A stretch of DNA of 64,000 nucleotides from Chloroflexota bacterium. Its GTDB lineage: Bacteria > Chloroflexota > Anaerolineae > Promineifilales > Promineifilaceae. Position 1 is the stretch's first letter, and every line of letters begins with the position of its first letter. The position numbers and the translations under genes were made by a program. The notes beneath the pieces are model-generated. The model was not told where the DNA came from. It saw only the letters and a program-made list of their open reading frames with translations, and made no database searches. Of this stretch, positions 30,724 through 62,444 are shown piece by piece. The DNA lies in the NCBI GenBank assembly GCA_018004935.1, contig JAGNBF010000006.1, positions 67,150 to 131,149 on the forward strand. Direction: 5' to 3'.

Positions 30724-30897
30724 ATGACAACTATTCCCACGAAATCATCTACATCTCAGAAACTCTATACGCCTCCTACTATCATCTATGAAGGACAAAT
30801 CAGCACTCGTGCTGGTTCACCCGCTGGCCCCATCGCCCCAACAGAGAGGCAAGAGGTAGATCCAATTGATCTCTTTGACAATGAAGATAGATCTTAA
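30724..30897 (+). CDS. RiPP-precursor-like peptide (57 aa)
   Basis: A 57-aa peptide. Residues 15-24 (YTPPTIIYEG) fit the YxxPxLxxxG leader motif recognised by lasso-peptide and related RiPP maturation proteins, with Ile in place of Leu. A Thr follows at 28 and an AGSP at 30-33, then a Pro-rich stretch and an acidic DPIDLFDNED end. A lasso ring would need Asp or Glu at core position 7-9, which is absent if the core starts at Ala30 or Gly31, so a true lasso peptide is unlikely. No maturation enzyme is in the window. GGAG lies nine bases before ATG 30724. Confidence 0.6.
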   Translation: MTTIPTKSSTSQKLYTPPTIIYEGQISTRAGSPAGPIAPTERQEVDPIDLFDNEDRS

Positions 30898-31025: not shown

Positions 31026-31874
31026 ATGGCCCTAAAAGGCGACCTGCGCGACTTCTCTACCACACAACTTCTAAACCTCATTGCTCTGGCTCGCAAGACC
31101 GGTATGCTCACGATTCAGGGATCTGAACCAGCCAGGATGTCCTTTAAGGAAGGCAAGCTGATACATGCCGCTGTGGGGAATCAGGAAGGGAGTCTGTCTC
31201 AAATTTTGCAACATGCTGGCAAGCTCACCGCCGAGCAAAGTCGGGTTATCCAGGCCAAAGCCGCGGACAAAAGTGACAAACAATTGGGTCACATGCTCAT
31301 TCAGGCAGGTTATGTCACACAAAGTGATATCATCCAAAGTGTGCGCCAATATGTGTTAGATGTGGTTTACAAACTGTTTACCTGGGCAGATGGCACTTTC
31401 CAATTTGAAGCCAACAAACTACCCCCTCCAGAACGCATTACCATTCCTATAGATTTGGAAGGGGTCATTATGGAAGGAAGCCGTCGGCTAAAAGAATGGG
31501 AACGGCTCCAAGAAGAGATACCAGATCTGGATATTTCTTTGCGCTTTACAGATAAACCAACGGCTCGCCTGCGGAATATAAACCTGACGGTTGAAGAATG
31601 GCGGGTCATCTCTTTCATCAATCCACGTAACAGCATCCGTCAGATTGCCCAGGGAAATAATCTGAACGATTTTGAAATTCGCCGCATTGTCTATGGCCTC
31701 ATCCAGGCCGGTATTGTTGAAATCGTGACGGTGAAAAAACCCAAACAGGTTCTACCACCTACACAAACAACACGCCGAGGCGCGGCCGCACAGGCAGAAG
31801 TCGCTGTTGGTCAGTCACCAGAGGAAAAACGGTCCATTGTCAGCCGTCTGATTACGCGTATCAAGGGACTATAA
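31026..31874 (+). CDS. DUF4388-domain signalling protein
   Basis: A 282-aa cytosolic protein. The N terminus LKGDLRDFSTTQLLNLIALARKTGMLTI is the hallmark of DUF4388 (PatA-like N-terminal) domains found next to response regulators and MglA GTPases. GYVTQSDIIQSVRQYVLDVVYKLFTWADGTFQF continues that domain to about residue 130. A winged-helix-like part follows at about 180-240 (ISFINPRNSIRQIAQGNNLNDFEIRRIVYGLIQAGIVEI). AGGA precedes ATG 31026. It is the first gene of the signalling cluster, 95 bp before the GTPase, and is probably an adaptor for it. Confidence 0.85.
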   Translation: MALKGDLRDFSTTQLLNLIALARKTGMLTIQGSEPARMSFKEGKLIHAAVGNQEGSLSQILQHAGKLTAEQSRVIQAKAADKSDKQLGHMLIQAGYVTQSDIIQSVRQYVLDVVYKLFTWADGTFQFEANKLPPPERITIPIDLEGVIMEGSRRLKEWERLQEEIPDLDISLRFTDKPTARLRNINLTVEEWRVISFINPRNSIRQIAQGNNLNDFEIRRIVYGLIQAGIVEIVTVKKPKQVLPPTQTTRRGAAAQAEVAVGQSPEEKRSIVSRLITRIKGL

Positions 31875-31969
31875 TCCGTCGCCAAGTTCATTTATCCACG
31901 CGGCCGCTACCACGGTTGCTTTTTTCCTTTATCCTATAGCTTTATTACCTTATTCAGAGTGAAGGGCCT

Positions 31970-32518
31970 ATGCAAGCAGTAAAAATGGTCGTCACCGGCC
32001 CCTTTGCGGCAGGAAAAACCGCTTTTATCGGTTCCGTTAGTGAAATTCCCGTTGTCTCTACCGAACGGAGAATCACCAGTTCCGCCGAACAAGTCAAAGA
32101 AACCACAACCGTGGCGATGGATTTCGGTCGTATTACTGCCGAAGATGGATTAGTTCTCTATCTTTTTGGAACCCCAGGTCAGAGGCGTTTTGACTTTATG
32201 TGGGAAATCCTCTCCGAAGGGATGTTGGGGTTTATCGTATTGGTAGATAGCACCAAACCCGAAACATTCCGTGAAGCCAAACGTATTTTAGAAACCTTCG
32301 AAAGTTTTGCCCCTACCCCGTTTGTGGTTGCCGCCAACAAACAAGACCACGATGATGCCTGGGAACCGGAAGATTTACGCATTATTCTCCGGCTCGACGC
32401 CAGCGTCAAAGTATTGCCTTGTGTCGCTACGGATCGTGAAAGCGTAAAAAATGTCTTACTAGAGCTTTTGTACTCCATTCTGGAAGAGCTAGACGACAAA
32501 GGCAAGTCGGCCAAATAA
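31970..32518 (+). CDS. MglA-like small Ras-family GTPase
   Basis: A 182-aa bacterial small GTPase. G1 is GPFAAGKTAF at residues 10-19, the switch I Thr is in TTTVAMDFG, G3 is FGTPGQRRF, and G4 is NKQD. The FGTPGQ form instead of DTAGQ is typical of MglA and related bacterial GTPases. In Myxococcus MglA sets cell polarity; in Chloroflexota the family often sits with DUF4388 and roadblock proteins. No roadblock (MglB-type) gene is present here, so the GTPase-activating partner is unknown. AAGGG precedes ATG 31970. Confidence 0.9.
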   Translation: MQAVKMVVTGPFAAGKTAFIGSVSEIPVVSTERRITSSAEQVKETTTVAMDFGRITAEDGLVLYLFGTPGQRRFDFMWEILSEGMLGFIVLVDSTKPETFREAKRILETFESFAPTPFVVAANKQDHDDAWEPEDLRIILRLDASVKVLPCVATDRESVKNVLLELLYSILEELDDKGKSAK

Positions 32519-32796
32519 CCCATACCGTGCCATTCACGGGCTATTCATCCGACCTTCACCCGCTTTTTACACGTTCAGACAACGGGCAGTGTTAATATTC
32601 CCCAGTGAAAGCATGTTGGCTGATTTTTGTCAGTTGATCTTGAACCAGCCTATTACGCTCTAGTACAATGGTTCTGTTAAGCAACAATGAAATCGGGGCG
32701 TGTTATTGTTTCATCAGGAAAGCTGGATTGAAAACGCAACGATCATCGCCTTAACAAATGGCCGGCGCACATCGAGCGTAATGTGGTGAGGTCAGT
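32519..32796. other. Spacer with promoter, no repeats
   Basis: A 278-bp gap free of the repeat families that fill most other spacers. It contains one promoter-like sequence (32640-32669) and otherwise nothing recognised. Confidence 0.5.
32640..32669 (+). promoter_or_regulatory. Putative sigma70 promoter before alpha/beta hydrolase
   Basis: TTGAAC at 32640-32645, 18-bp spacer, TACAAT at 32664-32669; about 130 bp before GTG 32797. Suggests the hydrolase and V4R gene form a second transcription unit. Confidence 0.45.
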
Positions 32797-33624
32797 GTGA
32801 GTTCGATTGTTACCGATCACGGAATCTTACATTACGAGTCAATTGGACGAGGTCGCCCCATTATCCTGTTGCATGGGTGGATTAACTCCTGGGACGTGTG
32901 GCGTGATTCTATGATCGCTCTGGCCAATCGAGGCACCAACCGCGTTTATGCCCTTGATTTCTGGGGTTTTGGGGATTCCGCCAAACAAACAGTCCATACC
33001 GCCTTTCAGGTAAATAGTTATGTACAGATGGTGTATGAGTTCATGGAAGCCTTGGGCATCCAGTCGGCACCTGTATTTGGACATTCTATGGGCGGTACGG
33101 TGGCCCTGCAATTTGCACTTACGTATCCAGACCGGATCAAAAAATTTGCGGTTGTGGGGTCTCCCATTCAAGGCTCATCCCTCAATCCATTTCTGAAACT
33201 GGCCGGGCAAGGATGGATTGCCGAATTAGTCTGGCGGTACCCCGTACTGCGCAGTACCATCATGTGGGTGTTGCTTCAAGGAGATTCAGATCGTGTCCGC
33301 AACATGATTTTCCGTGATGTGAAACGGACCAGTCTGGACTCTTTTTTTCGCAGTATTAATGACCTGCGCCGCACTGATTTGCGCGAACAGTTAAAAACAC
33401 TGACTGTCCCTGTGTTAGGTATCTATGGGGTAAATGACAACATTGTTTCTCCTAAAAACGCCAGAATCCTTACCCAGGGTACGCAAATGGCAACGGTGAA
33501 GATGATGCAACGGTCACGTCATTTCCCCATGACGGATGAGCCGCAAGAGTTTTTGCAGACCCTGGATAATTTTCTTAATGAAAACCATGAAGTAGCGAGT
33601 GCAATGAAAACAGGCAACCCGTGA
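32797..33624 (+). CDS. Alpha/beta hydrolase (first paralogue)
   Basis: A 275-aa alpha/beta-hydrolase fold protein. HGW (oxyanion region) is near residue 26, the nucleophile elbow is FGHSMGGTVALQ, the acid probably lies in YGVNDNIVS, and the His in SRHFPMTDEP. The substrate is not predictable. It starts with GTG (VSSIVTDHGILHYES). Its TGA stop overlaps the GTG start of the V4R gene (GTGA), so the two are translationally coupled. It is clearly related to the hydrolase at 41117-41926 (shared HYE-x2-GRGRPI and DxWGFGDS), and the pair bracket the signalling genes. Confidence 0.92.
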   Translation: MSSIVTDHGILHYESIGRGRPIILLHGWINSWDVWRDSMIALANRGTNRVYALDFWGFGDSAKQTVHTAFQVNSYVQMVYEFMEALGIQSAPVFGHSMGGTVALQFALTYPDRIKKFAVVGSPIQGSSLNPFLKLAGQGWIAELVWRYPVLRSTIMWVLLQGDSDRVRNMIFRDVKRTSLDSFFRSINDLRRTDLREQLKTLTVPVLGIYGVNDNIVSPKNARILTQGTQMATVKMMQRSRHFPMTDEPQEFLQTLDNFLNENHEVASAMKTGNP

Positions 33625-34259
33625 ACCAAGAACTCCTGGTTAAACAGAAAGAATATTTTTATCCTAACCGTGGCGGCCGCATTGTCCTCACCGCCCTTGA
33701 AGATATTATGGGGTCTCATGGGGTGAATGCTGTTTTGCACCTGGCTCAATTAGACCACCTTGTGAACAATTATCCCCTTAATAATTTACAACTAGGCTTT
33801 TCTTTCACTGACTTTGGTATATTAGAAGAAACATTGGAAAAGATGTTTGGTGAACGTGGCGGCCGCGGTCTGTCTTTACGCGCTGGTCGCGAAACGTTCA
33901 AGTATCTTCTCAAGGAGTTCATGCCAGTCATCGGAATTGCCGACCTGGCAATGAGAGCTTTACCACTAAGCATCAAACTTAAGATTGGTCTGGATATTTT
34001 CGCCGAATCTTTTAACCGCTTTTCCGATCAGGTGGTGCGCCTACGGGAAGAAAAAACGCATCACCTATGGATTATTGAGCGTTGCCCCGTATGTTGGCAA
34101 CGCACGACCTCTACTCCCTGTTGTCAATTAGCAGTAGGTTTGTTAGAAGAATCTTCGTACTGGGTCAGTAATGGCAAAACGTTTCAGATTGAAGAAATAG
34201 AGTGCATTGCGGCAGGAGGAAAAACCTGCACGATTGCTATCAGTAAAAAACCTATTTGA
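33621..34259 (+). CDS. V4R-domain (4-vinyl reductase-like) protein with Cys motifs
   Basis: A 212-aa protein. The C-terminal half matches the V4R fold, ending in the family-typical EIECIAAGGKTCTIAIS. Cys155 and Cys158 (CPVC) plus Cys167-Cys168 could bind a metal or act as a redox switch. V4R domains bind small hydrophobic molecules in regulators such as XylR/DmpR-type proteins and in bacteriochlorophyll-related proteins; here a small-molecule sensor role is likely. It uses a GTG start inside the previous stop codon. A rho-independent terminator follows immediately. Confidence 0.82.
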   Translation: MNQELLVKQKEYFYPNRGGRIVLTALEDIMGSHGVNAVLHLAQLDHLVNNYPLNNLQLGFSFTDFGILEETLEKMFGERGGRGLSLRAGRETFKYLLKEFMPVIGIADLAMRALPLSIKLKIGLDIFAESFNRFSDQVVRLREEKTHHLWIIERCPVCWQRTTSTPCCQLAVGLLEESSYWVSNGKTFQIEEIECIAAGGKTCTIAISKKPI

Positions 34260-34261
34260 TT

Positions 34262-34296
34262 AAAAGTCAGAGCTTCTAAGAATCTCTGACTTTTTT
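34262..34296 (+). terminator. Rho-independent terminator after V4R gene
   Basis: AAAAGTCAGAG pairs with CTCTGACTTTT, followed by a run of T. It ends the hydrolase-V4R unit, 18 bp before the next gene. Confidence 0.8.
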
Positions 34297-34313
34297 GCCT
34301 GTGTACTGTTGTT

Positions 34314-35585
34314 ATGCGCCGTATTATCTTATCTGATCCCACTTTTATTCAGCCGTTTAATGAACCGGCGCGTGATCTGCGGGTGCATAACAAACCCCTT
34401 TGGTTATGGCAACGGGATATTTTAAACCCCTATGTAAACGAAGAACGGGAGTACCCCACCTGGCAAATTGCCCAAAAAGTAGAAGGCAGTGAAATGGTGG
34501 AGGTGTTTGTTCACCGTGATAATCTGTTTTTTAATGAAGCGCTGATTGAGGATTTTTTGACTCGTGCCCGTAGCGGCCGCAAACCCGTCCGTCTCGCCTT
34601 CAAAAGAAACGACCCTGCCATCTCTGAACATGTGATTCCCCTTACCCGTGGCCTGTTCTGTCAGGATGATTTAGTCCTGGCCGACATTTGGTATCTGCCC
34701 CAAGGGGTTTCCCAAAGTGTTATTGCGACTCCTCTCATAGTCAAAACTGAAGCCAAAGAACGCGGTTATTACTTCGTTCCCCCTTATATGTCTAGCCAGT
34801 TTGGAGACCTTGTCTACCAATTACCTCGTAAAGCGTTCGTGGCTATTGAAAACTGGGTTCATGTTTTTATTGTTGACATCCTCTTTGGTGTTTTTGCCCG
34901 CGGTGTTAATGAGGAAGCTCACATTGCCAAGGATTGGCGCTACAAGGTAAAAATCCTGCTCAAATCTATGATGGAGCAAAAACAAATCCTGGGTAGTTCG
35001 GAATTGGTCAGAATCGGCAAAAACGTGAGCATTGACCCCTCGGCTATTATTCATGGGCCAACAACCATTGGTGATAATGTCCGCATTGAAGCGGGTGCGG
35101 TTATTGATAATTGCATTATTGGCAGTAATGTCACGGTGGCTCAGGGATGCCAATTGATGCTCAGTGTGATTGGTGATGGCTGTTTTCTCCCTTTCCGGGC
35201 GGCCTTATTTATGACCACCCTGATGGAAAATACCAGCATTGCCCAAAATACCTGTTTACAGTTATGCGTTATTGGCCGGGACTCCTTTGTCGGTGCCGGG
35301 ACAACTTTTACTGATTATAATGTCCTGCCGGGCATGATCCGGGTAGAAACAAAAGGCGGACTGGAAGACACGAATCTGAAAATTCTCGGCGGGTGTATTG
35401 GTCACCATTGTCGGGTTACATCAGGTTTGATTATGTATCCGGCGCGTACTGTCGAATCAGATGTTGTCCTGATTGCTTCCGAGGAACGACGTTTCATTTA
35501 TAAATCGGTCAGTTATGAACAAAGTGACCATCATCAATTTCCCCACAAAGAACACCCGCGTTTGTATCCGCGTCAGGGTGAGTGA
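34314..35585 (+). CDS. Left-handed beta-helix (hexapeptide repeat) protein
   Basis: A 423-aa protein. From about residue 235 hexapeptide-like turns are visible (IDPSAIIHGPTTIGDNVRIEAGAVIDNCIIGSNV is a typical section; later CVIGRDSFVGAGTTF), giving a left-handed beta-helix as in sugar-nucleotide acyltransferases and GlmU. The N-terminal 230 residues are not a recognisable nucleotidyltransferase: no GxGxR or similar motif. They may be a degenerate version or a binding domain. No ribosome binding site is seen before ATG 34314, and the start lies just after the terminator. Role in the signalling cluster unknown. Confidence 0.75.
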   Translation: MRRIILSDPTFIQPFNEPARDLRVHNKPLWLWQRDILNPYVNEEREYPTWQIAQKVEGSEMVEVFVHRDNLFFNEALIEDFLTRARSGRKPVRLAFKRNDPAISEHVIPLTRGLFCQDDLVLADIWYLPQGVSQSVIATPLIVKTEAKERGYYFVPPYMSSQFGDLVYQLPRKAFVAIENWVHVFIVDILFGVFARGVNEEAHIAKDWRYKVKILLKSMMEQKQILGSSELVRIGKNVSIDPSAIIHGPTTIGDNVRIEAGAVIDNCIIGSNVTVAQGCQLMLSVIGDGCFLPFRAALFMTTLMENTSIAQNTCLQLCVIGRDSFVGAGTTFTDYNVLPGMIRVETKGGLEDTNLKILGGCIGHHCRVTSGLIMYPARTVESDVVLIASEERRFIYKSVSYEQSDHHQFPHKEHPRLYPRQGE

Positions 35586-35950
35586 AGCAACATGGCCTGA
35601 TGGTCACGGGACAAGTCGGTCGTATACAGAGTTGCCGCTTATGGGGAAGTTGGCAACTCTGCTGTTTTTTACTACCTGATTCTTATCAATTCTGGTGAAT
35701 AACGGGTGAAAAGTAACCCGTGAGTTGGTTAAAAAAAGCATTGTCTGGTTGACGCCAGTCCTGTTTACTCGGAAACTATGGTTGAGTCCGCGGCCGCGAA
35801 GCCCTGTACTCATTGTAGCGTTCATGAATACTCTGGTGTAGCATTGTCGCAACCAGATAGCATTGATAGAATTGCGTAAGCAGGTGGTTAGCCATCTGTT
35901 TGAAAATCTGCTTCTCACCGTCCCCACTCGTTTAGTGAAGGAAAGCGCGT
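35586..35950. other. Spacer with terminator and intergenic GCGGCCGC
   Basis: After the terminator at 35628-35670 there is about 280 bp of unassigned sequence without the repeat families. It contains one of only two intergenic GCGGCCGC sites (35790-35797). No clear promoter could be fixed. Confidence 0.5.
35628..35670 (+). terminator. Rho-independent terminator after beta-helix gene
   Basis: AGAGTTGCC pairs with GGCAACTCT, followed by GCTGTTTTTT. Confidence 0.75.
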
Positions 35951-36853
35951 ATGCTCGGAAGAATATTAGTGGTCGAAGACGATGTTGACATCGCAAACAT
36001 GCTCCGAATCTACTTTACCGGGCAGGATTATCAGGTTGAAGTAGCTAACCGGGGTACAGATGCACTCCGCCTGTGCCAAAAACAGATCCCTGATCTGGTG
36101 GTGCTAGACATTATGCTCCCGGATATGGATGGATATTCCATTTGCCGAGAGCTACGCACGACTACCCGCACCAGTCACATCCCCATTATCTTTTTAACCC
36201 AAAAAGATGAACGGAGTGACCGGATCGCCGGGTTAGAACTTGGTGCCGATGATTACATCACCAAACCGTTTGATATTGAAGAGTTGAAGTTGCGGGTGAA
36301 GAGTGCCATTCGCATTCATCAACGAATGAATATGACTGACCCACGGACCGGTCTGCCCAGTAGTCGGCTGATTGAAGATCAGTTACGTCAGCTCATGCGT
36401 GCCGATGGCTGGACACTTCTGCTGGTTGGCATAGACCATCTCTCTCCCTTTAATGACACCTATGGCTTCGTCGCCAGTGGTGAAGTTCTCCGTTTTACTG
36501 CCTTGTTACTAAATGATGTGGTAGATGAATTGGGAACATTGAATGATTTCATTGGTCATGCCAGTAGTGAAACGTTTGTGATTATTACCATGGAGAAAAA
36601 TGTAGCCTCTATGGTCGAACAGTTACGCAAACGGTTTAATGAAGAGGTCCTGACTCATTATAATTTCATTGATCGAGAACAAGGGGGTATTCGCTTGAGC
36701 GATGGTGCATTGGCTCCCTTAATGAGTCTGTCTATTGGGGTCGTATCCAGTAAAACGCCATTCTCTGATATTCGCGAAATTACGGAAGCGGCCGCAGAAC
36801 TGCGTCGCCTGGATCAGGAAGAACAGGCCAGGCACCGGGCCAATAGCCGATAA
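35951..36853 (+). CDS. Response regulator with degenerate GGDEF domain
   Basis: A 300-aa protein. The receiver domain spans residues 3-120 with phosphoacceptor Asp53 (VVLDIMLPDMDG), acidic residues near 10-11, Thr at about 82 and the conserved KPFD Lys. The second domain begins MTDPRTGLPSSRLIEDQL and has the fold signature of GGDEF domains (DHLSPFNDTYGFVASGEVL), but the active loop is GHASSETF at about 202-209 rather than GGDEF, so it should not make c-di-GMP. It may bind nucleotide or dimerise. AAGGA precedes ATG 35951. The histidine kinase starts 64 bp downstream. Confidence 0.9.
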   Translation: MLGRILVVEDDVDIANMLRIYFTGQDYQVEVANRGTDALRLCQKQIPDLVVLDIMLPDMDGYSICRELRTTTRTSHIPIIFLTQKDERSDRIAGLELGADDYITKPFDIEELKLRVKSAIRIHQRMNMTDPRTGLPSSRLIEDQLRQLMRADGWTLLLVGIDHLSPFNDTYGFVASGEVLRFTALLLNDVVDELGTLNDFIGHASSETFVIITMEKNVASMVEQLRKRFNEEVLTHYNFIDREQGGIRLSDGALAPLMSLSIGVVSSKTPFSDIREITEAAAELRRLDQEEQARHRANSR

Positions 36854-36917
36854 CGAATCACCAGGCTTTTTTCTTCTTTGTATTGGTACGGCTGACCTTT
36901 CTGGTCAAGGTCTGGTA

Positions 36918-39900
36918 ATGAGCAACGAACGCCTAAACGCGCTAACCTGGCAATTTCTCGATAACGTGACAGAAGGGGTGGTTATCACTACCCCTGATGG
37001 CATGGTTAATTATGTAAATCCAGCCGCCCAAAAATGGCTTGGTTTATCAAGCATGCCCCATACCGGCACAACCTCAATCGCCGAAATATTGCCATCCCTC
37101 TCCACACATATTTCTTGGGAACAACTCACAAGCGCCAATAACACCGCTCATATTTTTACTGTCAATGGTCATTGGCAGATTAAGGCCACACCCATTCATG
37201 GCACAGGGCATCAGTTCATTCAATGGAATATTGTGCCAGACCAATCGGTAGTGCCCACTTCCCCTGTTATCAATGAAAATGCTGAGGGTTTACAATATTT
37301 GTATGACCTTTCTCAGGCTGTTTTGCGGGAGTATGACTTTGACCGTAAGTTGCAAATGATGGTCAATGGGCTTCAGGCAACGGGGTGGCAACGGATAACA
37401 ATGACTCTGCGTGACCCGGACTTTACTGCCCGCAAATTGATCTCAGCCGGACTAACGCCGGAAGAACATGCCTTTTTGCAGGAAAATATGTTGCCCTCAG
37501 AAGTGTGGCGGCAACGGTTTGCCAGTGTTCAATTTGCTTCTTATCGGCGCGGAAGCTGTTACTTCATCCCCGCAGAAGACCCGTGGGGGCAGGCCAACAT
37601 CGGTGTGGTCTTGCCGGGTCATGAGCCAACAGATATTCATCCTTATACCAACCGCTGGCATCCCCATGATCTGTTTCTGGTACCACTTTATAATCAAAAA
37701 CAACAGATTATGGCCCTTATTGGTCTAGACGCCCCTCGGAATGGGTTGCGGCCAGATGATCATGCCATACAGACAGTAGAACTCTATGCCCAATTTACGG
37801 CTTCTGTTATTGAAACAGGTCAGCTTTTAGAAGAAGCTATCAACCGTAGCCGGGAACTTGCTATTCTGGCTGAAGCTAGTGAGGCCATTACCGGTTCATT
37901 AGAGCAAGAAACGGTTCTGAGCACCATGGGCGAACATCTTTGCCGGGCCGCTCAGGGGGCCGGTTATACCCTGATTCAATGGCTACAAGAGAGTAACCAG
38001 ATTACGGTGTTGTTTGATGAAGAGGCAGGGGGACGCTCCACATCGGAGCTTGAAGGTGAGAGTTTTATTTTGTCAGATTACCCGCCTCTGGCAAAGGTGT
38101 TAACCGGTGGCACAAGAAGTATGGTCTCTTGGGGACAGGGTGAGCCGGGTTATTTGCCCTCGGTGTGGCTGAAAACAGATCGGTCCTACACTCTTATTTT
38201 GTTGCCTTTGACGATTCGGGGAGAGATGTTTGGTCTGGTGCAATTGGGTGTTCCGGGCAACGCGGCCGCAATCGGCCCCACCGATCTGCAAATTCTCGAA
38301 GCTATCGTGAATTCCGCCAGCATTGCCCTGGAAAACGCCCTGCTTTTTGAAGATACTTACAAACGAGAACTATTCTTCACCGCCCTGGGTCGTGTCAGTC
38401 TGGCTCTTAATGCCACACTTGAGCTTGAAGGGGTTCTCAACCTTATCTGTCAGGAAAGTTTAAGTATTTTCCGGCTAGATGGCGTTTATATCTGGCAGGT
38501 AGATCATGGGCGACTTATTGGTATGGCCGCAGTAGGAGAAGGTCAACAGGCCTTTATTGGGCATACCGTATCTGCCAGTGACGAACGGATTTTCCCCGCC
38601 CTGGTTATCCACGAGAATGAGGCATTATACCTCAATGGTTTTGAGGCCAACGGTCCCATTACCCTTGGCTTACCCACACCCGTTCAGGTACGGGCGGTTC
38701 TGGCGGTTCCCTTACAACGGGACAACGACATCATCGGGGTATTGGTGTTGGTGGAAAAGAGTAATCCGCATCGCTTTACCACACAGGATGTGCAACGGGC
38801 TACCCAGTTTGGGGTGCAGGCGGCCATCGCTATGCGTAATGCCCAATTGTTTACGCAATTGCGTACCCTCAATGAAGAATTGGATGAACGAGTGGAGGAA
38901 CGTACCCAGGCCCTGGGGGAAGAGCGTGACCGGGTGCAAATTTTGCTCCGTATCAGTTCGGAGCTGGCGGCCAGTCTGGATGAAGACCGCGTTTTGAGTC
39001 GCGCCCTGGAATTGGTAAATGAAGTGGTAAACGGCACGCAAGGGGTTATCCTGCTGATTGATCAGGAAACGGGCGAGTTAATGTTTAAGGCGGCCCTGGG
39101 TGGACGGTCTCGTGAAATTCCTACGGGTGGCCTGCCTACCGGGTTACGTCGCCATGAAGGGTTGGCAGGCTGGATCATCGAAAACCAGGTGGCGGTCATT
39201 GTAGATGACACAGAAACTGATGATCGTTGGGTAAATTTGCCCACCAGCAAGGATATGCGCTCGTCTCTGGGGGTACCGCTTATCTCTGGGGATGAGGTTA
39301 TTGGTGTGCTGATGATGTTCCATAAAGAGCCACGGGCTTTTACGAAGGAACAATTAAAGTTGGTGGAAGCGGCCGCGATTCAGGTGGCAAATGCCATTTA
39401 CAACTCTCAGCTTTATTTACTCATCCGGGATCAGGCCAACCGGTTGGGGAACCTTCTCCGCGAAGAACAAATTGAAGCGGCTAAGAACCAATCTATTCTG
39501 GAAAGTATTGCTGACGGGGTGCTGGTAGCTGATGCGGAAGGCACCATTCTTATTGCCAATGAGCCAGTCAGCCGGATTTTGGACATTACACGTAACCGGT
39601 TGATCGGCAAATCGGTGCGGACTCTGCTCGGCGTTTATGGTTCATCGGGTGATTCCTGGGTGGATCGCATTGAAGATTGGGCCCAAAGTACGGAGCGCAT
39701 CCGCAATATGCCCTTATCTTATCTCTCGGATCGGCTGGAAATTGAAGATAAGGTTGTCAGTATCCATGTTTCGCCAGTTTTTGCCGGTAACTTATTCTTT
39801 GGTACGGTGTCTATTTTCCGTGACATCACGAAAGAAGTGGAAGTAGACCGGATGAAGAGTGAGTTTGTCTCTACTGTTTCGCATGAACTGCGTACACCGA

Positions 39901-40562
39901 TGACTTCTATCAAAGGGTACGCTGATTTGATGTTGATGGGGGCGGCTGGCCCCATGACGGATCCTCAAATCCGTTATCTGGAAGTTATCAAGAATAATGC
40001 CGATCGTCTGCGCACTCTAGTAGATGAGTTACTAGATATTTCGCGCATTGAGACAGGCAAGACTGAGCTAGATTTACGGCCCATGGATGTCCCACAACTG
40101 GTACACCGGTTATTGGATGAGCACTTACGCGGCCGCATGATGAACGAAGGGAAAAAGATGTCCCTCAGCGCTGAGTTAGAATCAGGTCTTCCCCTGGTCA
40201 ATGCCGACGCCTCACGCGCCCATCAAATCTTGCGCAACCTCCTAGACAACGCTTTCAACTACACCCCGGAAGGCGGATTCATCAAAGTCATCGCCCAGAC
40301 GGTACGTGGATATGTTGCCATCAGTGTCAAAGATACAGGCATTGGCATTGCCAAAGAAAATCTCTCTAAAATTTTTGACCGCTTCTTCCGGGCAGAAGAT
40401 ACTGACATTCAACAGATCCCCGGCACAGGGTTGGGCCTGGCCATTGTCCGTAGCCTGGTGGAGATGCACGGTGGTATCATCCATGTAGACAGTGAAATAG
40501 GCAAAGGTTCTACCTTCACTTTTACCCTCCCTATTGTGACATCTGACGGGGAAATGGTTTAG
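36918..40562 (+). CDS. Large multi-GAF/PAS hybrid sensor histidine kinase
   Basis: A 1214-aa soluble kinase. Approximate order: PAS (1-105), GAF1 (115-300), GAF2 (310-475), GAF3 (485-650), a coiled-coil (NEELDERVEERTQALGEERD), GAF4 (670-840), PAS (865-980), HisKA and HATPase. Phosphoacceptor His989 is in SHELRTPMTSIKGYADLM, the N box is LRNLLDNAFNYTP, and the G boxes are DTGIGIAKENL and GTGLGLAIV. No transmembrane segment, so it senses cytoplasmic or diffusible signals. Start ATG 36918 is used; a longer in-frame start at 36735 would overlap the regulator gene by 119 bp in another frame. It probably signals to the flanking regulators. Confidence 0.93.
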   Translation: MSNERLNALTWQFLDNVTEGVVITTPDGMVNYVNPAAQKWLGLSSMPHTGTTSIAEILPSLSTHISWEQLTSANNTAHIFTVNGHWQIKATPIHGTGHQFIQWNIVPDQSVVPTSPVINENAEGLQYLYDLSQAVLREYDFDRKLQMMVNGLQATGWQRITMTLRDPDFTARKLISAGLTPEEHAFLQENMLPSEVWRQRFASVQFASYRRGSCYFIPAEDPWGQANIGVVLPGHEPTDIHPYTNRWHPHDLFLVPLYNQKQQIMALIGLDAPRNGLRPDDHAIQTVELYAQFTASVIETGQLLEEAINRSRELAILAEASEAITGSLEQETVLSTMGEHLCRAAQGAGYTLIQWLQESNQITVLFDEEAGGRSTSELEGESFILSDYPPLAKVLTGGTRSMVSWGQGEPGYLPSVWLKTDRSYTLILLPLTIRGEMFGLVQLGVPGNAAAIGPTDLQILEAIVNSASIALENALLFEDTYKRELFFTALGRVSLALNATLELEGVLNLICQESLSIFRLDGVYIWQVDHGRLIGMAAVGEGQQAFIGHTVSASDERIFPALVIHENEALYLNGFEANGPITLGLPTPVQVRAVLAVPLQRDNDIIGVLVLVEKSNPHRFTTQDVQRATQFGVQAAIAMRNAQLFTQLRTLNEELDERVEERTQALGEERDRVQILLRISSELAASLDEDRVLSRALELVNEVVNGTQGVILLIDQETGELMFKAALGGRSREIPTGGLPTGLRRHEGLAGWIIENQVAVIVDDTETDDRWVNLPTSKDMRSSLGVPLISGDEVIGVLMMFHKEPRAFTKEQLKLVEAAAIQVANAIYNSQLYLLIRDQANRLGNLLREEQIEAAKNQSILESIADGVLVADAEGTILIANEPVSRILDITRNRLIGKSVRTLLGVYGSSGDSWVDRIEDWAQSTERIRNMPLSYLSDRLEIEDKVVSIHVSPVFAGNLFFGTVSIFRDITKEVEVDRMKSEFVSTVSHELRTPMTSIKGYADLMLMGAAGPMTDPQIRYLEVIKNNADRLRTLVDELLDISRIETGKTELDLRPMDVPQLVHRLLDEHLRGRMMNEGKKMSLSAELESGLPLVNADASRAHQILRNLLDNAFNYTPEGGFIKVIAQTVRGYVAISVKDTGIGIAKENLSKIFDRFFRAEDTDIQQIPGTGLGLAIVRSLVEMHGGIIHVDSEIGKGSTFTFTLPIVTSDGEMV

Positions 40563-40651
40563 TTACGAATGGGTTTTTCATGGTGTGTAGGACACTCATC
40601 CTCAATTCCCACGACACCTTATGAAACACGCCAATCATACAAAGGCTTATT

Positions 40652-41038
40652 ATGGCAAAAATTCTTATTGCCGAAGACGAGAAAGATATACGAGAACTGA
40701 TTACCCTCACCCTACAATTTAGCGGCTTTGAGGTGGTCAGTGCCAGAGACGGCCAGGAAGCCGTAGAAGTTGCCACTACCCCCGGTAACAAGTTCGACCT
40801 GATTTTGATGGATGTGCGGATGCCCCGCAAAACAGGCTATCAGGCCTGTCGGGAAATACGCGATTACGAAGGCACACAAAGTACCCCGCTCATTTTTCTT
40901 TCGGCTAAAGGTCAGGAATCTGAGGTGCAACAAGGACTTGAAGCAGGTGCAGATCAATATATTCTGAAACCATTTGCCCCCGATGCTTTGATCAAGACAG
41001 TCAAAGAAGTCCTGAGCCGAACTAATCATGGGGGATAA
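40652..41038 (+). CDS. Single-domain response regulator (CheY-like)
   Basis: A 128-aa receiver with no output domain. Acidic pair Glu9-Asp10 in IAEDEKD, phosphoacceptor Asp54 in LILMDVRMPR, Ser/Thr in FLSAKGQ and Lys in KPFAPDALIKTV. It lies 90 bp after the large kinase and probably receives phosphate from it, passing the signal by protein contact, perhaps to the MglA-like GTPase system upstream as in some gliding bacteria. That last step is inference. Confidence 0.93.
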   Translation: MAKILIAEDEKDIRELITLTLQFSGFEVVSARDGQEAVEVATTPGNKFDLILMDVRMPRKTGYQACREIRDYEGTQSTPLIFLSAKGQESEVQQGLEAGADQYILKPFAPDALIKTVKEVLSRTNHGG

Positions 41039-41116
41039 CCAATTTACCATTAGCGCTGGCACAATGATGTGCCAGCCTGTTCCAACCTGTACTCCTCAGT
41101 TTTTACGAGTAAAGCC

Positions 41117-41926
41117 ATGAGCATCACCACCATTGGTGCCCATCTCATCCATTATGAAGCACTTGGCCGGGGACGGCCTATTGTGTTCATTCATGGTTGG
41201 CTGGGTTCCTGGCGCTATTGGTGGCCCTCTATGCAGGCATTATCTACTCATCATCGCACATTTGCTTTTGATTTATGGGGTTTTGGTGACTCTAGCAAGG
41301 CTCCCAATATGAGCACTGCTGGGGAGCTTTATAATTTTTCTGTTTATGTAGATATGCTGGACCGGTTTTTAGAGAAGTTGGGCATTAATCAGCCCGTGAC
41401 GCTGATTGGACATTCATTGGGTGCCGCTATTGCCTTGCGTTATGCCAGCAAATATTTAGGACGTGTGGATCGTCTGGTCACGGTGGCCTTACCGGTGCAA
41501 GGTTCGTGCATAAATGACCGGCTGATGAATCTAGATGCTGATTCTTTTGTAAGCAAAGTTTTGGGTAAGAGCAATAGTTTCCCGGAAGTAGACAGCGAAA
41601 TGCGTAAAATTGATTCGCAAGCTGTTAATCGTGTGGCTAGCGAATTAGCTAATTATAATTTTTTGCCCGAAATTGATGATTGCCCCCACCCGTTATTATT
41701 GGTGTATGGGGAGCAAGATCTGGTGATTCAGCAACCCCCCAGTGATTTAGTCCATCTGCGTCAGGCAACGAAGAGTCGTTATTACATTAGTCTTGACGAT
41801 TGCAACCACTTCCCCATGTTGCAACAGACGGCCCAGTTTAATCGCCTTATTCTGGATTTTATCAATGCCGATGGTAACCTCACCAATCTGGCCCCGAAGG
41901 AATATTGGCAACGTCGTACCCGCTGA
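41117..41926 (+). CDS. Alpha/beta hydrolase (second paralogue)
   Basis: A 269-aa alpha/beta hydrolase: IHGWLGSW oxyanion region, nucleophile elbow IGHSLGAAIALR, acid probably in YGEQDLVI, His in DDCNHFPMLQQ. Start ATG 41117 (MSITTIGAHLIHYEALG) is preferred over 41069 because the shorter form aligns with its paralogue at 32797. The two share an N-terminal block (HYE-x2-GRGRPI) and DLWGFGDSS. Substrate unknown. Confidence 0.9.
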   Translation: MSITTIGAHLIHYEALGRGRPIVFIHGWLGSWRYWWPSMQALSTHHRTFAFDLWGFGDSSKAPNMSTAGELYNFSVYVDMLDRFLEKLGINQPVTLIGHSLGAAIALRYASKYLGRVDRLVTVALPVQGSCINDRLMNLDADSFVSKVLGKSNSFPEVDSEMRKIDSQAVNRVASELANYNFLPEIDDCPHPLLLVYGEQDLVIQQPPSDLVHLRQATKSRYYISLDDCNHFPMLQQTAQFNRLILDFINADGNLTNLAPKEYWQRRTR

Positions 41927-46900: not shown

Positions 46901-49186
46901 CTACTCATCCTCATCTCCCCCTGACAACGCCTGCCCAATCGGATCATCCCCCTCTTGGGTGTAAGAACGGCGGGTACGTCCCCCCTGTTTGGGATCTTCC
47001 ACTAACCCCATCTCGTGCAGAACTTCCATCAGCCGGGCGGCACGAGGATAACCCACCCGTAACCGCCGTTGGAGCATAGACGTGGAAATCATGTCATACT
47101 TCTGCACCAGTTCAATAGCCTGTTCCAACATTTCATCCCGCTCATCCACAAAATTTTGCCGTTCAATCAGATTTTCCCAGGGTGCTTCCGGAGTTGGCAC
47201 TGGCGGCATGACATGACGCCAATGCTCTACCAGATCATCAATTTCACTATCGTCCAAAAAACAGCCTTGCACCCGCATCGGCGCACTGGCATCTGGCGAA
47301 AGGAAAAGCATGTCACCGCGCCCCAATAAATTCTCCGCCCCTACCGTATCCAAAATAACCCGTGAATCAGTTCCAGAGGCCACAGCAAAAGAGATACGAG
47401 CCGGAAAGTTGGCCTTGATGAGGCCAGTGATCACATCAGTGGACGGGCGTTGGGTTGCCACTACCAGATGAATGCCAGTAGCACGGGCCATTTGCGCCAG
47501 ACGGCAGAGGGCAGGCTCTACTTCGCCCGGATACAGTCCCATCAGATCAGCCAGTTCGTCAATAATGACGGCAATAATCGGCAAAAGCTGGACATTAGGG
47601 TGACGCGCAATTTTGTGGTTATACGTGACCAGATTACGTGCTCCCACCACGGCAAATGCCTGGTAGCGCCGATCCATCTCGGCAGTTAACCATTTCAATA
47701 CCCCCAAAGCCCGTTCCGCTTCTACTTCTACTTTACCGAGCAGGTGGGGTAGGCCGTTAAAACGGATGAGTTCCACCTTTTTGGGGTCAATCATTACCAG
47801 TTTAAGTTGCTCTGGGGTGTTGTTGCACACAAGACAGGCAATCGTAGCATTGAGGCAAACAGATTTCCCGGAACCGGTGGTACCGGCAATGAGTATGTGG
47901 GGCAGTTTGGTCAGTTCGGTGATAACTGGCCCCCCAGAGACATCCGCCCCTAAAGCCACGAGGGTTGTGGATTTCCCTCGTTGGAAGGGATCGGTTTCCA
48001 GGAGGGAACGCAAGCGCACAATGCCTGTTTCATCGTTGGGGACTTCGATACCGACAATGCCTCGTCCCGGCACGGGAGCCTCGATACGTAGACGGGGTAC
48101 TTGCAAGGCCAGGGACAAATCTTTGTTGAGTGAAGCAATCTGGCCAACCCGCACTTTGGCCTGTTTCATATCCCCTTCTGGGCCGGGTCGTTCGACATAA
48201 CCGGGCAATACACCAAATTGGGTGATGGACGGTCCTTGCCGCACGTCGGTAATTTCGGCAGGCAGGCCAAAATCGAGCAAGGTTTGTACGATGACCTGTT
48301 TTTTCCGTTCGATTTCTTCAACGGGGGATTGATAAGTAACTCCTTCATGGAGCAGATCTAGAGAGGGCAGGCGCGGATCACGGCCGCTATTGGGGGTTGG
48401 TTTGGCCGAGGCATCAACGAGAATGGGGGTCGTATCCGAGATAGGTTCAGGGGATGGCTGGGAGCGGGCAACACGCGGCCGCATTGCTCTCGGTGCTCCT
48501 GACTCTACCACATCTATTTGCTCCGCCCATGTTTGCAGGAAAATAGAAAAGCGGCGCAGGGCCGCCAGCAAATCATCCCACCCGAATTTTACCAGGAGGG
48601 CAAAACCCCAGGCCAGTAAACTTAGGTGGAGTAACGTTGTGATAATGGGGCCAAAAAAATCTACCAGCGGAGCCGCCAGCGCCCAGCCCAACAAGCCACC
48701 CCCACGCCCGTTTAAGGCATCTAGCCGTGTCGCCTGACTAAAAATATAGGTCAGAGGGAGGGACGTTACCAGAATCATCTCCAACCCGACTACCTGCAAG
48801 GGAGTTACCGGGTAGGGGCGGATTATCTGGCGCAGGGCAATGTAGAGGCCCGCGGCCGCGAGTGAGAGCCACAACGGATAAGCGCCCCAGCCTACCAGTT
48901 CCCGGTTCCACTGTACCCAAATCCCTAATAAGCCCCCCCGGCTTAACCCAGACAGCCCTAATAGGGTAAGAATTGCCACCAAAACCAGGCCCCCACCACT
49001 CAGTTCTACCCACCAGGGGCTGAGAGCATCAATAAGACGTTCATCCCAGGTAGGGGGGGGTGGGGCCGGTTCGCGGTTCGTTTTGACCGGTGGGAGGATA
49101 ACCGGAGGGGTAGGGGATTCGGGTTCGGCTTTGGTACGAGCCATAAGTTTAAGGCCAATGATCAGCGATATCGAGCTACTGGTCAT
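46901..49186 (-). CDS. ftsK: DNA translocase FtsK/SpoIIIE
   Basis: A 761-aa septal DNA pump that moves chromosome ends and supports dimer resolution. About four membrane helices lie at residues 55-215. A short linker follows, then the motor: Walker A IAGTTGSGKSVCLNA near 435, Walker B VIIDELADLM, and QRPSTDVITGLIK. The winged-helix gamma domain closes the protein (TSMLQRRLRVGYPRAARLMEVLHEMGLV). It is shorter than E. coli FtsK because the linker is short. An alternative start 14 codons later (MARTKAEPE) is equally likely, as neither has a ribosome binding site. It lies near the dcw cluster. Confidence 0.95.
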   Translation of the reverse strand: MTSSSISLIIGLKLMARTKAEPESPTPPVILPPVKTNREPAPPPPTWDERLIDALSPWWVELSGGGLVLVAILTLLGLSGLSRGGLLGIWVQWNRELVGWGAYPLWLSLAAAGLYIALRQIIRPYPVTPLQVVGLEMILVTSLPLTYIFSQATRLDALNGRGGGLLGWALAAPLVDFFGPIITTLLHLSLLAWGFALLVKFGWDDLLAALRRFSIFLQTWAEQIDVVESGAPRAMRPRVARSQPSPEPISDTTPILVDASAKPTPNSGRDPRLPSLDLLHEGVTYQSPVEEIERKKQVIVQTLLDFGLPAEITDVRQGPSITQFGVLPGYVERPGPEGDMKQAKVRVGQIASLNKDLSLALQVPRLRIEAPVPGRGIVGIEVPNDETGIVRLRSLLETDPFQRGKSTTLVALGADVSGGPVITELTKLPHILIAGTTGSGKSVCLNATIACLVCNNTPEQLKLVMIDPKKVELIRFNGLPHLLGKVEVEAERALGVLKWLTAEMDRRYQAFAVVGARNLVTYNHKIARHPNVQLLPIIAVIIDELADLMGLYPGEVEPALCRLAQMARATGIHLVVATQRPSTDVITGLIKANFPARISFAVASGTDSRVILDTVGAENLLGRGDMLFLSPDASAPMRVQGCFLDDSEIDDLVEHWRHVMPPVPTPEAPWENLIERQNFVDERDEMLEQAIELVQKYDMISTSMLQRRLRVGYPRAARLMEVLHEMGLVEDPKQGGRTRRSYTQEGDDPIGQALSGGDEDE

Positions 49187-53123: not shown

Positions 53124-54326
53124 CTATTTCTTACGCAAAAAGGCTGGAATATCCAGATCATTGGGCCGATAGGTAGGCGTAACCCGCTGTGGTTGGCTTG
53201 GCACTGAACCAGACCGCACCGGCACACCCACCGGCTGTTCTTGCGGCCGCGTACTCACACCACTCCCAACATTACTACTCACCCGGCCCAGCGGCCGCGC
53301 CAGCGGCATGTTGTGATCAAACCCCGTAGCAATCACCGTAATCCGAATGGCATCCTTCATCGTTGGGTCAATTACTGCCCCAAAGATCAGATTCACATCC
53401 GGATGGGCCGCCTGCCGTACCAATGAAGCCGCCTGATTAATCTCAAACAAAGTTAAATCATCCCCACCCGTTACGTTGAACAAAATACCGCGTGCCCCAT
53501 CAATGGTCACATCTAACAATTTGCTAGAAAGAGCTTGCGCGGCCGCGTCCTGTGCCCGGTTATCACCTGTGCCATGACCCACAGCCATCAAAGCCGCTCC
53601 CCCTAACGACATAATCGTCTTCACGTCGGCAAAGTCCAGGTTGATGAGGCCAGGAACTGTAATCAATTCACTAATTCCCTGAATCCCCTGGCGCAATACC
53701 TCATCTGCCATACGGAATGAATCCACCAGCGACATCCGTTTGTCAGCCGTTTCCAACAGTTTATCATTGGGAATGACAATGAGCGTATCTACCTGCTCCT
53801 TGAGCCGGTTGATCCCTTCCTCCGCCGATTTCAGGCGGTGGGAACCTTCAAAGGTAAACGGTTTGGTCACTACACCAATGGTCAGCGCACCTTCTTCACG
53901 GGCCACTTTGGCCACAATAGGAGCCGCGCCGGTTCCCGTGCCACCACCCATACCAGCCGTCACAAAGACCATATCCGATCCCCGCAACAGTTGGTGCAAC
54001 TCTTCCTCTGACTCTTCGGCGGAGCGCAGGCCAATGTCTGGGTTCCCCCCCGCCCCCAACCCACGGGTGGTACGTTCACCAATATGCACCCGTTTGGGCG
54101 CATCACTCCGCAGTAACGCCTGATTATCAGTATTGAGGGCGATAAAATCCACCCCCACGATTCCCTCGTTGATCATGCGGTTGACGGCATTACTTCCCCC
54201 GCCGCCTACACCCACCACACGAATCAAGGCGTTCCCTTCGATTTCGGGCATGCGCGTCACCGTATACCCATTTCCCGTCGTCCGCGTTTCTGTTGCTCTC
54301 TGTGTCTCTCTGCCTCTTTGGTTCAT
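53124..54326 (-). CDS. ftsZ: Cell division GTPase FtsZ
   Basis: The tubulin-like protein that forms the division ring. 400 aa. [16 protein letters not shown], the tubulin signature [10 protein letters not shown], and NLDFADV of the T7 loop are all present; the C-terminal conserved peptide is [11 protein letters not shown], used to bind FtsA. A leader of about 30 residues before the GTPase fold ([15 protein letters not shown]) is unusual. It is the last gene of the dcw cluster. The ftsA-ftsZ gap (145 bp) holds a family A repeat at about 54374-54450. Confidence 0.98.
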
Positions 54327-54373
54327 ATTCCTTCCCTCTTTTTATGGGGAGACTGAGAGATCAAGAGACTGTT

Positions 54374-54450
54374 TAGTAATCGTCGGAGGTAGCTCGATCA
54401 GGAGACCGGCCACAGTCAGCATCTTAGTTAAAAACGAACGATTACTTAGT
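54374..54450 (+). repeat. Family A element between ftsA and ftsZ
   Basis: TTAGTAATCGTC at one end and GAACGATTACTTA at the other form inverted ends, with the GGTCAGGAGACCGG core (first base altered: GATCAGGAGACCGG). A mobile-looking repeat has landed inside the division operon. Confidence 0.75.
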
Positions 54451-54471
54451 CTCTTCATCTCCACTCTCTTT

Positions 54472-55689
54472 TTAGCCGGGCAACAATGCCCGCAAAAACT
54501 TCCCTATCCGTTGACTCCATTCTCCTGTGCGTACTTGCCCAGGACGATACACATGATGATCACTCATAGCCCAACGCAACAAACCCACCCCAGTGGCATA
54601 CGCCGGATTGTTAATTGCTTCTACCAGCCCTACCAGATTTTTCGGGGGGGCTACGCGTGCCGGAATGCCTAATATTTTCTGCGCCAGGTCGGTAATACCC
54701 CGCGATTGGGCGACGCCTCCGGTCAGGACAATGCCCGCCGGAAGTAAACCGTTGTAACCCGATTCTTTAATGTTGGCGGCGATCATCTGAAAGATCTCTT
54801 CGGCGCGGGCCTCAATAACATGGGCCAAATCCTGGCGTCCCACCTGGATTTTTTCGCCGCCAAATGGCTCCACGGTGAAGATATTATGGGGATCAATTTC
54901 TTGGGGACGGCAATCACCATATTGCAATTTCACCCGCTCAGCTACTTCAAAAGGTACTCGCAGACCAATGGCGATGTCGTTGGTGATATGGTTGCCGCCA
55001 ATGGGTAAAACGGCGGTGTGCCAGGCCATGCCGTCCGTGTAGAGGGCAATATCGGTCGTCCCACCGCCCATATCGGCCAGCAAGACCCCCATGTCGCGCT
55101 CGGAAGGTTCTAACACGGCTTCCCCGGAAGCCAGGGCATTGAGGACAAACTCATCCGTGGTAATGCCGACGTTTTCGGTGCAGAGGGAGAGGTTTTGCAA
55201 CGCGGCCGCGGCCGCGGTCACAATATGCGCTTCCACCTCAAGCCGGTAGCCAAACAACCCTAGCGGGTTCTTTACCTCATCATTATCATCAATCTTGTAG
55301 CGGCGCGGAATCAGATGAACAATTTGCCGCCCCTGCGGGATGGATATCGCCTGCGCCATTTCTAACGCACGGCCAATATCGGCCGCTACCACCCCCCCCT
55401 CGTTACGACCAATGGGGGCCGTGCCACTGCTATTCGCACAATTAATATGCTCCCCAGCCATGCTAACAAACGCCCGCGACAAATCATAACCCGAGGTTTG
55501 CTCCGCCTTTTCTACTGCCCGCGCAATCGCCACACTGGCCTCACTGGGGTTAATAATCATCCCTTTTTTGATCCCCCGTGAGGGTTCAATACCAATACCG
55601 ATGATGCGCAATTGCCCCTGCCGCGCCTCACCAACAATAGCACAAATCTTAGTCGTTCCGATGTCCAGTGCGAAGATTATCTGTTCCAT
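54472..55689 (-). CDS. ftsA: Cell division protein FtsA
   Basis: An actin-like membrane tether for FtsZ. 405 aa. DIGTTKICAIVGE opens the fold; MIINPSEASVAIARAVEKAEQTSG, VLLADMGGGTTDIALY (phosphate 2) and ILTGGVAQSRGI (adenosine motif) are present. The C terminus (WSQRIGKFLRALLPG) is a good amphipathic membrane-binding helix. Two overlapping GCGGCCGC sites (55202 and 55208) encode a run of Ala in the middle. ftsQ ends 69 bp upstream. Confidence 0.97.
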   Translation of the reverse strand: MEQIIFALDIGTTKICAIVGEARQGQLRIIGIGIEPSRGIKKGMIINPSEASVAIARAVEKAEQTSGYDLSRAFVSMAGEHINCANSSGTAPIGRNEGGVVAADIGRALEMAQAISIPQGRQIVHLIPRRYKIDDNDEVKNPLGLFGYRLEVEAHIVTAAAAALQNLSLCTENVGITTDEFVLNALASGEAVLEPSERDMGVLLADMGGGTTDIALYTDGMAWHTAVLPIGGNHITNDIAIGLRVPFEVAERVKLQYGDCRPQEIDPHNIFTVEPFGGEKIQVGRQDLAHVIEARAEEIFQMIAANIKESGYNGLLPAGIVLTGGVAQSRGITDLAQKILGIPARVAPPKNLVGLVEAINNPAYATGVGLLRWAMSDHHVYRPGQVRTGEWSQRIGKFLRALLPG

Positions 55690-55758
55690 AATACGTTATT
55701 GGTTATTGGTTATTAGTGATTGGTTGGTTACTACGCCAATAACTAACAACGAATAACG

Positions 55759-56760: not shown

Positions 56761-56845
56761 AGGTGTACGGGTGTATCAGTTATTGGTGTATGAGTTATTC
56801 CTCTGGATGGGGCGCATAACTCAGCACAAATAACGAACAACTTTT

Positions 56846-57955: not shown

Positions 57956-57966
57956 TAAAAACGGAT

Positions 57967-58066
57967 TATCTTCTCAAAATTTCGGAGATAACCAGGCCTG
58001 AGCTTGTCGAAGGCCGTGGGTTTCGACAAGCTCAACCCACGACTACCCTGCATTATTGAGAAGATA
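57967..58066. repeat. Repeat family G copy 3, between ddl and murB
   Basis: TATCTTCTCAA and TTGAGAAGATA ends with an inner GAGCTTGTCGAAGGCC / TCGACAAGCTC inverted repeat. The stem may act as an attenuator within the operon. Confidence 0.65.
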
Positions 58067-58075
58067 CAGAATGGA

Positions 58076-59032: not shown

Positions 59033-59076
59033 AAATACTCCAGGGTGGATTCAGGTTCCAGGTTTTTATACTGTGG

Positions 59077-59151
59077 TTTAGAGCTAGAGGGGAGGGGTAG
59101 AGGGAATTTCAGGGGTGAACCTGTTTACTCTCACTCTGAACTCTAAACTCA
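59077..59151. repeat. Low-complexity element between murC and murB
   Basis: Bounded by GTTTAGAGCTAGAG and ACTCTGAACTCTAAAC, like the tandem element at 51492-51617 but much shorter. Confidence 0.55.
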
Positions 59152-59172
59152 AGTTTCTATGGTGTACTCGCT

Positions 59173-60624: not shown

Positions 60625-60670
60625 GATTGGTTTGCGTGTTTGCCAGCGGCCTACGGCCAGTTGCCAGTGG

Positions 60671-62439: not shown

Positions 62440-62444
62440 TTTTC

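Follow-up and report, generated by a model that had tools for sequence, protein, structure and literature searches.

The stretch analysed here, referred to as the window, comprises 64,000 nucleotides from a Chloroflexota bacterium (assembly GCA_018004935.1, contig JAGNBF010000006.1, positions 67,150 to 131,149 of the forward strand). At positions 31026-41926 it carries nine genes, designated A to I (Table 1), which had been regarded as a candidate signalling module in a preliminary description made from the sequence alone. Most of that parts list was borne out. The list of open reading frames (ORFs) agreed with nine genes on one strand, and the cluster was free of repeats, as repeated 18-mers covered 0 bases of it and 2165 bases in the rest of the window. 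DUF4388 (106 bits), the hexapeptide beta-helix, REC plus GGDEF, the CheY-like REC and both alpha/beta hydrolases were all matched by Pfam, and the bracketing hydrolases C and I were indeed paralogues (29% identity). The kinase G had been described as carrying four GAF domains; its PAS, GAF, HisKA and HATPase domains were found, but Pfam searches with separate pieces yielded three GAF domains, one of these just below the cut-off, the first piece being without GAF. The starts of G and I were reassessed, and 36918 and 41117, respectively, were the better ones.

Table 1. Features of the cluster, with positions in the window
Feature	Position	Strand	Product	Details
A	31026..31874	+	PATAN/DUF4388 protein, 282 amino acids	Weak MshEN-like similarity in an alpha-helical insert, below the NCBIfam cut-off; C-terminal helix conserved (Pfam, NCBIfam, alignment)
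B	31970..32518	+	Small Ras-like GTPase, MglA Group 5 type by motifs	GTPGQ; NKQD; TT in G2
C	32797..33624	+	Alpha/beta hydrolase 1	Triad S97/D214/H242
D	33621..34259	+	Protein of predicted V4R/H-NOX/Bet3 fold	Start overlaps the end of C by 4 bases
E	34314..35585	+	Left-handed beta-helix protein	N-terminal domain resembles sugar-1-phosphate nucleotidylyltransferases
Spacer	35586..35950	+		Site of gene X (acyl-ACP reductase / PigE-N-like) in most relatives; no X remnant
F	35951..36853	+	Response regulator	REC and degenerate GGDEF (SSETF)
G	36918..40562	+	Histidine kinase	PAS / GAF repeats / PAS / HisKA / HATPase
H	40652..41038	+	CheY-like response regulator	
I	41117..41926	+	Alpha/beta hydrolase 2	Triad residues present in the window

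Gene order was compared in 40 loci around V4R matches and in loci found by the GTPase alone. The conserved order was A-B-C-D-E-X-F-G-H-I, with losses common and rearrangements few. Of 118 relatives, 83 had a match in the V4R search, and several of the 40 loci contained V4R paralogues lying outside the operon. Among 69 loci of the class with distinct B proteins, a mix of D-chosen and B-chosen loci, the order was intact apart from losses in 67 and rearranged in two; the PATAN gene preceded the GTPase gene in all 69, and at least two further module genes lay downstream in 56. Class loci chosen by B alone (27 after locus L103, which had no B match over the threshold, was dropped) had PATAN upstream in every case, and where the contig left room downstream (26 loci), a module gene followed in 23. 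Across the loci compared, the upstream neighbours of the cluster showed no conservation. Genomes of other classes of the phylum, which we infer to be Chloroflexia-type, carried A-B alone or with a roadblock gene (L164-L168) and D-E-F-G as a separate cluster (L211-L214, L219). Outside Chloroflexota, D was found near the GTPase in none of 52 loci, a few of them from Chloroflexota metagenome-assembled genomes (MAGs), with a class-level profile that could miss distant V4R proteins. The order is therefore not limited to close strains, because it was kept across the class and partly across the phylum, and the conserved module of the preliminary description passed the gene-order comparison across Chloroflexota. 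A gene list in PMC8756737 shows DUF4388, Srp102-like GTPase, MhpC-like hydrolase and glmU-like genes as consecutive in Anaerolinea thermolimosa, with no interpretation in the passage concerned. The literature covered, mostly other than subscription papers, gave no account of the module or of a bacterial V4R-roadblock-GTPase linkage. The cluster is a real, conserved and largely undescribed signalling module.

The label MglA previously given to B required qualification. Pfam matched B best to ATP_bind_1 (69.6) and Arf (37), then to Ras (33.9), and its match to solved MglA was weak (29 bits). In an alignment of 17 members, G67-T68-P69-G70-Q71, T46-T47 and N123-K124-Q125-D126 were invariant. According to the relevant sections of PMC4316618, canonical MglA (Group 1) has TVPGQ in G3 and an intrinsic arginine in G2; GTPGQ, TT and NKQD are marks of Groups 4 and 5; and Group 5 is recognized by GTPGQ in G3, threonine replacing arginine in G2 and [NT]KxD in G4. 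Group 4 is nearly confined to methanogens there, and the phyla given for Group 5 include Chloroflexi, PATAN genes being occasional neighbours of this group. With GTPGQ replacing TVPGQ, B is not a canonical MglA; its motifs indicate an MglA-family GTPase of Group 5 type, an assignment by motif rather than by a tree against Group 4. A canonical TVPGQ MglA was found elsewhere in the genome (contig C196, L158:11255-11863), with PATAN and roadblock genes. That locus (L158, 8517-12571, minus strand) holds the TVPGQ MglA, PATAN, three roadblock-like genes and a member of a family S (alignment A8), which in several relatives lies directly 3' of a PATAN-roadblock gene. Family S looked V4R-like by eye, but hhalign gave a probability of 4% against D, and no Pfam or PDB match supported this impression. 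In two other MglA-type loci, PATAN and roadblock were fused in one protein (L235:736-1467 and L241:392-1162), whereas the genome studied here has them split into overlapping genes.

MglB/roadblock genes, which the preliminary description had proposed to look for elsewhere, were found over the cut-off in three places of the genome. One of these, designated R, lies in trans (G000 C145:156947-157312) and is 56% identical to the roadblock protein encoded directly after A-B in another genome (G392, L167). Among the 118 relatives (R at E <= 1e-15), 63 genomes had both B and R, 3 had only B, 5 had only R and 47 had neither. In 400 genomes of the phylum, for which the thresholds differed (B 1e-30, D 1e-12, R 1e-20), B was found in 75, R in 74 and D in 74. 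B and R were both present in 74 and R alone in none; R and D were both present in 71, all three in 71 and none of the three in 323, and B and D occurred together in 72 genomes with 5 discordant. The Group 5 GTPase thus has a cognate roadblock protein, R being present in 74 of the 75 genomes with B, and D31-G32, an MglB-like Asp-Gly, is found in 95% or more of 40 R sequences. R is a near-obligate partner of B, and some relatives have it within the operon. As B and R are mostly unlinked, their co-occurrence is not due to linkage; shared descent explains it in part.

R was also frequently a neighbour of D. It lay directly before the V4R gene on the same strand (gap below 300 bp) in at least 32 of the 71 phylum-sample genomes with both, always with R first and with gaps of 22-211 bp; these counts were computed on R and D matches sharing a contig and on some controls. 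The same arrangement was seen in at least 15 of the 118 relatives with gaps of up to 300 bp, and in at least 17 with gaps of up to 1.5 kb, compared with about 0.02 expected from random placement. All counts of R-D and B-D adjacency should be read as minimum values. One common form was R-D'-F', in which F' is a paralogue of F. A continuous PATAN-GTPase-roadblock-V4R run occurred in L186, L101 and L099/L169, and the same run with a hydrolase gene between roadblock and V4R in L046 and L052; in L186 both the roadblock (70.7 bits) and the V4R protein (42.7 bits) exceeded the Pfam cut-offs. The strongest new fact of this analysis is that a roadblock protein, a Bet3-fold V4R protein and a Ras-like GTPase are inherited together and that their genes are often adjacent.

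Taken alone, the window protein D scored 17.3 against Pfam V4R (PF02830), below the cut-off of 31. Its identity as V4R was nevertheless upheld by the family and the predicted fold, as 18 of 18 members matched V4R at E <= 1 (best 3.9e-13), and D of L186 and D' of L224 (45.3 bits) exceeded the cut-off. The structural model of D (mean pLDDT 91.2) was compared by Foldseek and VIA-align and matched H-NOX (Z 14.9, 171 residues, root-mean-square deviation (rmsd) 3.5-3.6), Thorarchaeal TRAPPC3 (Z 13.8, 148 residues, rmsd 2.9) and mouse Bet3 (Z 13.2, 148 residues, rmsd 2.6), Z differences under 1 being ties. D is thus predicted to have the V4R/H-NOX/Bet3 (TRAPPC3) fold. In a profile search its C-terminal part aligned with MopR, including C168, E192, C195 and C203, at an E of only 0.01; the matching residues of MopR bind Zn. 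The fold, the MopR-aligned residues and the acyl chemistry nearby make it plausible that D senses a hydrophobic ligand, as the preliminary description had supposed.

The second half of that supposition, that the two hydrolases process the signal as a pair, was not supported, because the nucleophile of hydrolase 2 is replaced by Gly, Ala or Asp in 7 of 11 members, with Ser in the other 4. In hydrolase C, at least 20 of 21 members have an intact triad. Gene X lay between E and F in 26 of the 40 loci (not de-duplicated) and was absent from the window and 13 others. X is homologous to the cyanobacterial long-chain acyl-acyl carrier protein (ACP) reductase (AAR) and to the reductase domain of PigE (E 7.6e-40 to 6jzq). 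The catalytic Cys of the AAR motif ACFAEA aligned with that of ACMAET in X, where it is invariant. X scored below the AAR equivalog cut-off (121.6 vs 449.7); from its sequence it is a relative of acyl-ACP reductase with a putative AAR function. No remnant of X was detected in the window spacer (best tblastn E 0.49). Two other X homologues, 42% and 40% identical, are encoded elsewhere in the genome, and these AAR-like genes may or may not replace X. A further locus of this genome (L161, contig C165, 8380-12642, plus strand) encodes a 730-amino-acid protein with an acyl-reductase-like C-terminal half, adjoining a histidine-kinase-like gene and a response regulator, and is a second pairing of the acyl-reductase family with a two-component system. 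E consists of a beta-helix joined to a nucleotidylyltransferase-like domain, and only the N-terminal part of its model was usable (mean pLDDT 65.3). The usual nucleotidylyltransferase loop is GxGTR; this loop was not seen in the E alignment, which makes the activity of E doubtful. The GGDEF domain of F is degenerate, as had been noted previously, the canonical GG[DE]EF being present in 0 of 19 members, so that F does not qualify as an active diguanylate cyclase. The preliminary description contains neither the roadblock partner with its V4R linkage nor the missing reductase nor the canonical MglA locus elsewhere in the genome.

We tentatively read the cluster as a Chloroflexota signalling operon centred on a Ras-like (MglA Group 5) switch, and consider this reading to be close to an even chance. 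Production or editing of a hydrophobic, probably acyl, ligand would fall to hydrolase C and the beta-helix protein E, joined in most relatives by the reductase X; D would bind this ligand, and hydrolase 2 would be a non-catalytic binder in most lineages. D and R would set the nucleotide state of B, B-GTP would act on or through the PATAN protein A, and kinase G with the regulators F and H would provide a phosphorelay input. Gene content and order, co-occurrence, adjacency, the predicted fold of D and the residue states are the observations on which this proposal builds; the ligand, a contact between R, D and B and the direction of signalling are what it would add to them. Several observations weigh against it. 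R is unlinked to the operon in the genome studied here, C is absent from some runs of the 69-locus set, and X is missing from 14 of the 40 loci. In the genomes of the other classes, R was not near any of 13 D loci (L209-L221), and A-B, R and D were mostly unlinked; this speaks against R-D as a universal unit. Because co-occurrence and adjacency are passed on by descent, the counts are not independent events, and D resembles H-NOX no less than TRAPPC3, the fold alone being no proof of function.

A possible but rather unlikely alternative is a lipid or glycolipid biosynthesis cluster, in which C, E, X and I would make a product under regulation by D, F, G and H, and the GTPase pair would be a separate neighbour. 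The homology of X to acyl-ACP reductase and PigE-N with its retained Cys, the likeness of E to nucleotidylyltransferase-beta-helix enzymes and the occurrence of D-E-F-G without A-B in another class agree with such a cluster; B and D, however, accompany each other with few exceptions in the phylum sample, A-B-D occurs without the enzymes in L062, L082, L196 and L197, and hydrolase 2 is often non-catalytic. Non-independence of the counts, together with a flanking gene J (DUF3048) that is also often nearby, would fit a neighbourhood of mostly independent genes held by vertical inheritance. We consider this improbable, as the upstream neighbours are not conserved, the order survives gene losses in 67 of 69 loci, and B and R co-occur though mostly unlinked. 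A role of D as an H-NOX-type gas sensor that uses haem and signals to the kinase is very improbable. H-NOX structures were its top matches, but H-NOX proteins have a conserved proximal haem histidine, and no His was invariant or nearly invariant in the 18-member D alignment, the aligned residues matching MopR Cys/Glu positions instead. Haem sensing by D was rejected for want of this residue.

Control of type IV pili or polarity also appears unlikely; in this reading the GTPase and PATAN protein would steer pilus motors, a role that MglA and PATAN regulators have in other systems. In cyanobacteria, type IV pili are a target of PATAN response regulators, as with PixE and PilB1 (PMC7690835), and in a Frankiales MAG (L109) a PATAN-GTPase pair lies directly before PilB, with MshEN, and PilC. 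The genome studied here, however, had no MshEN match, and among the 118 relatives MshEN showed no association with B, occurring in 14 of the 66 B-bearing genomes and 11 of the 52 others (p = 1.0). A link to type IV pili in this lineage was therefore rejected for the MshEN-type PilB, and motility through PilB-type pili is not supported. In an actinobacterial MAG (L113), read by eye, a GTPase heads a type IV pilus operon.

Upstream of the cluster, a 57-amino-acid ORF (30724-30894, plus strand) contains a stretch Y-x2-P-x-I-x3-G, which resembles a lasso-peptide leader; it had no Pfam or NCBIfam match, and no maturation genes were noticed within the window. On the other side, an FtsK-like gene at 46901-49186 and a cell-division and cell-wall cluster (53124-64000, minus strand) with ftsZ, ftsA, an ftsQ-like gene, ddl, murB, murC, murG and ftsW were recognized by eye.

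Among known systems, the MglA Group 5 of Wuichet and Sogaard-Andersen (PMC4316618) shares the GTPase motifs, the occasional PATAN neighbour and the listing for Chloroflexi. Its neighbourhoods, like those of Groups 1 and 4, vary widely, and V4R is not mentioned in the paper, whereas 9-10 genes are conserved here, with V4R and a phosphorelay. The conservon of Actinobacteria (CvnA-D) likewise joins a small GTPase, a roadblock protein and a histidine kinase in one system. It has, however, an altered G4 motif and no response regulator, compared with two here, and the passages describing it mention no PATAN, V4R or enzymes; G4 of B is NKQD, and no roadblock or CvnC-type gene is among the nine, so that the cluster is not a conservon. 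The phenol sensors MopR/PoxR have the V4R fold and the Cys/Glu positions in common with D, but their V4R domain is fused to a transcription factor and D stands alone.

Roles of prokaryotic V4R proteins are poorly known, and the co-inheritance across a bacterial phylum with frequent adjacency makes regulation of a small GTPase by V4R testable at the bench, together with the identity of the ligand. In Chloroflexota, a lipid-binding Bet3-fold V4R protein and a roadblock dimer, in operon form, might jointly govern the nucleotide state of the Ras-like GTPase, in a partnership like that of TRAPP in eukaryotic vesicle traffic; we regard this as doubtful. TRAPP (Bet3/Trs31/Trs33 with the longins Bet5/Trs23) is a guanine nucleotide exchange factor for Ypt1/Rab1. 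It shares with the present set the Bet3/V4R, roadblock/longin and small-GTPase fold classes, which here are co-inherited and often adjacent. The system described here differs in being bacterial, in having roadblock instead of longin and in the H-NOX-likeness of D; the comparison covered fold, adjacency and co-occurrence. An origin of Bet3 from V4R has been proposed (PMC2253512). In Asgard archaea, as far as the relevant part of PMC10933270 describes them, GTPase, roadblock and TRAPPC3 likewise occur in a prokaryote, with a Zn-bearing TRAPPC3/V4R fold that has a ligand cavity; there the GTPase genes are generally outside operons with roadblock, longin or TRAPPC3, whereas in several of the present genomes they lie within them.

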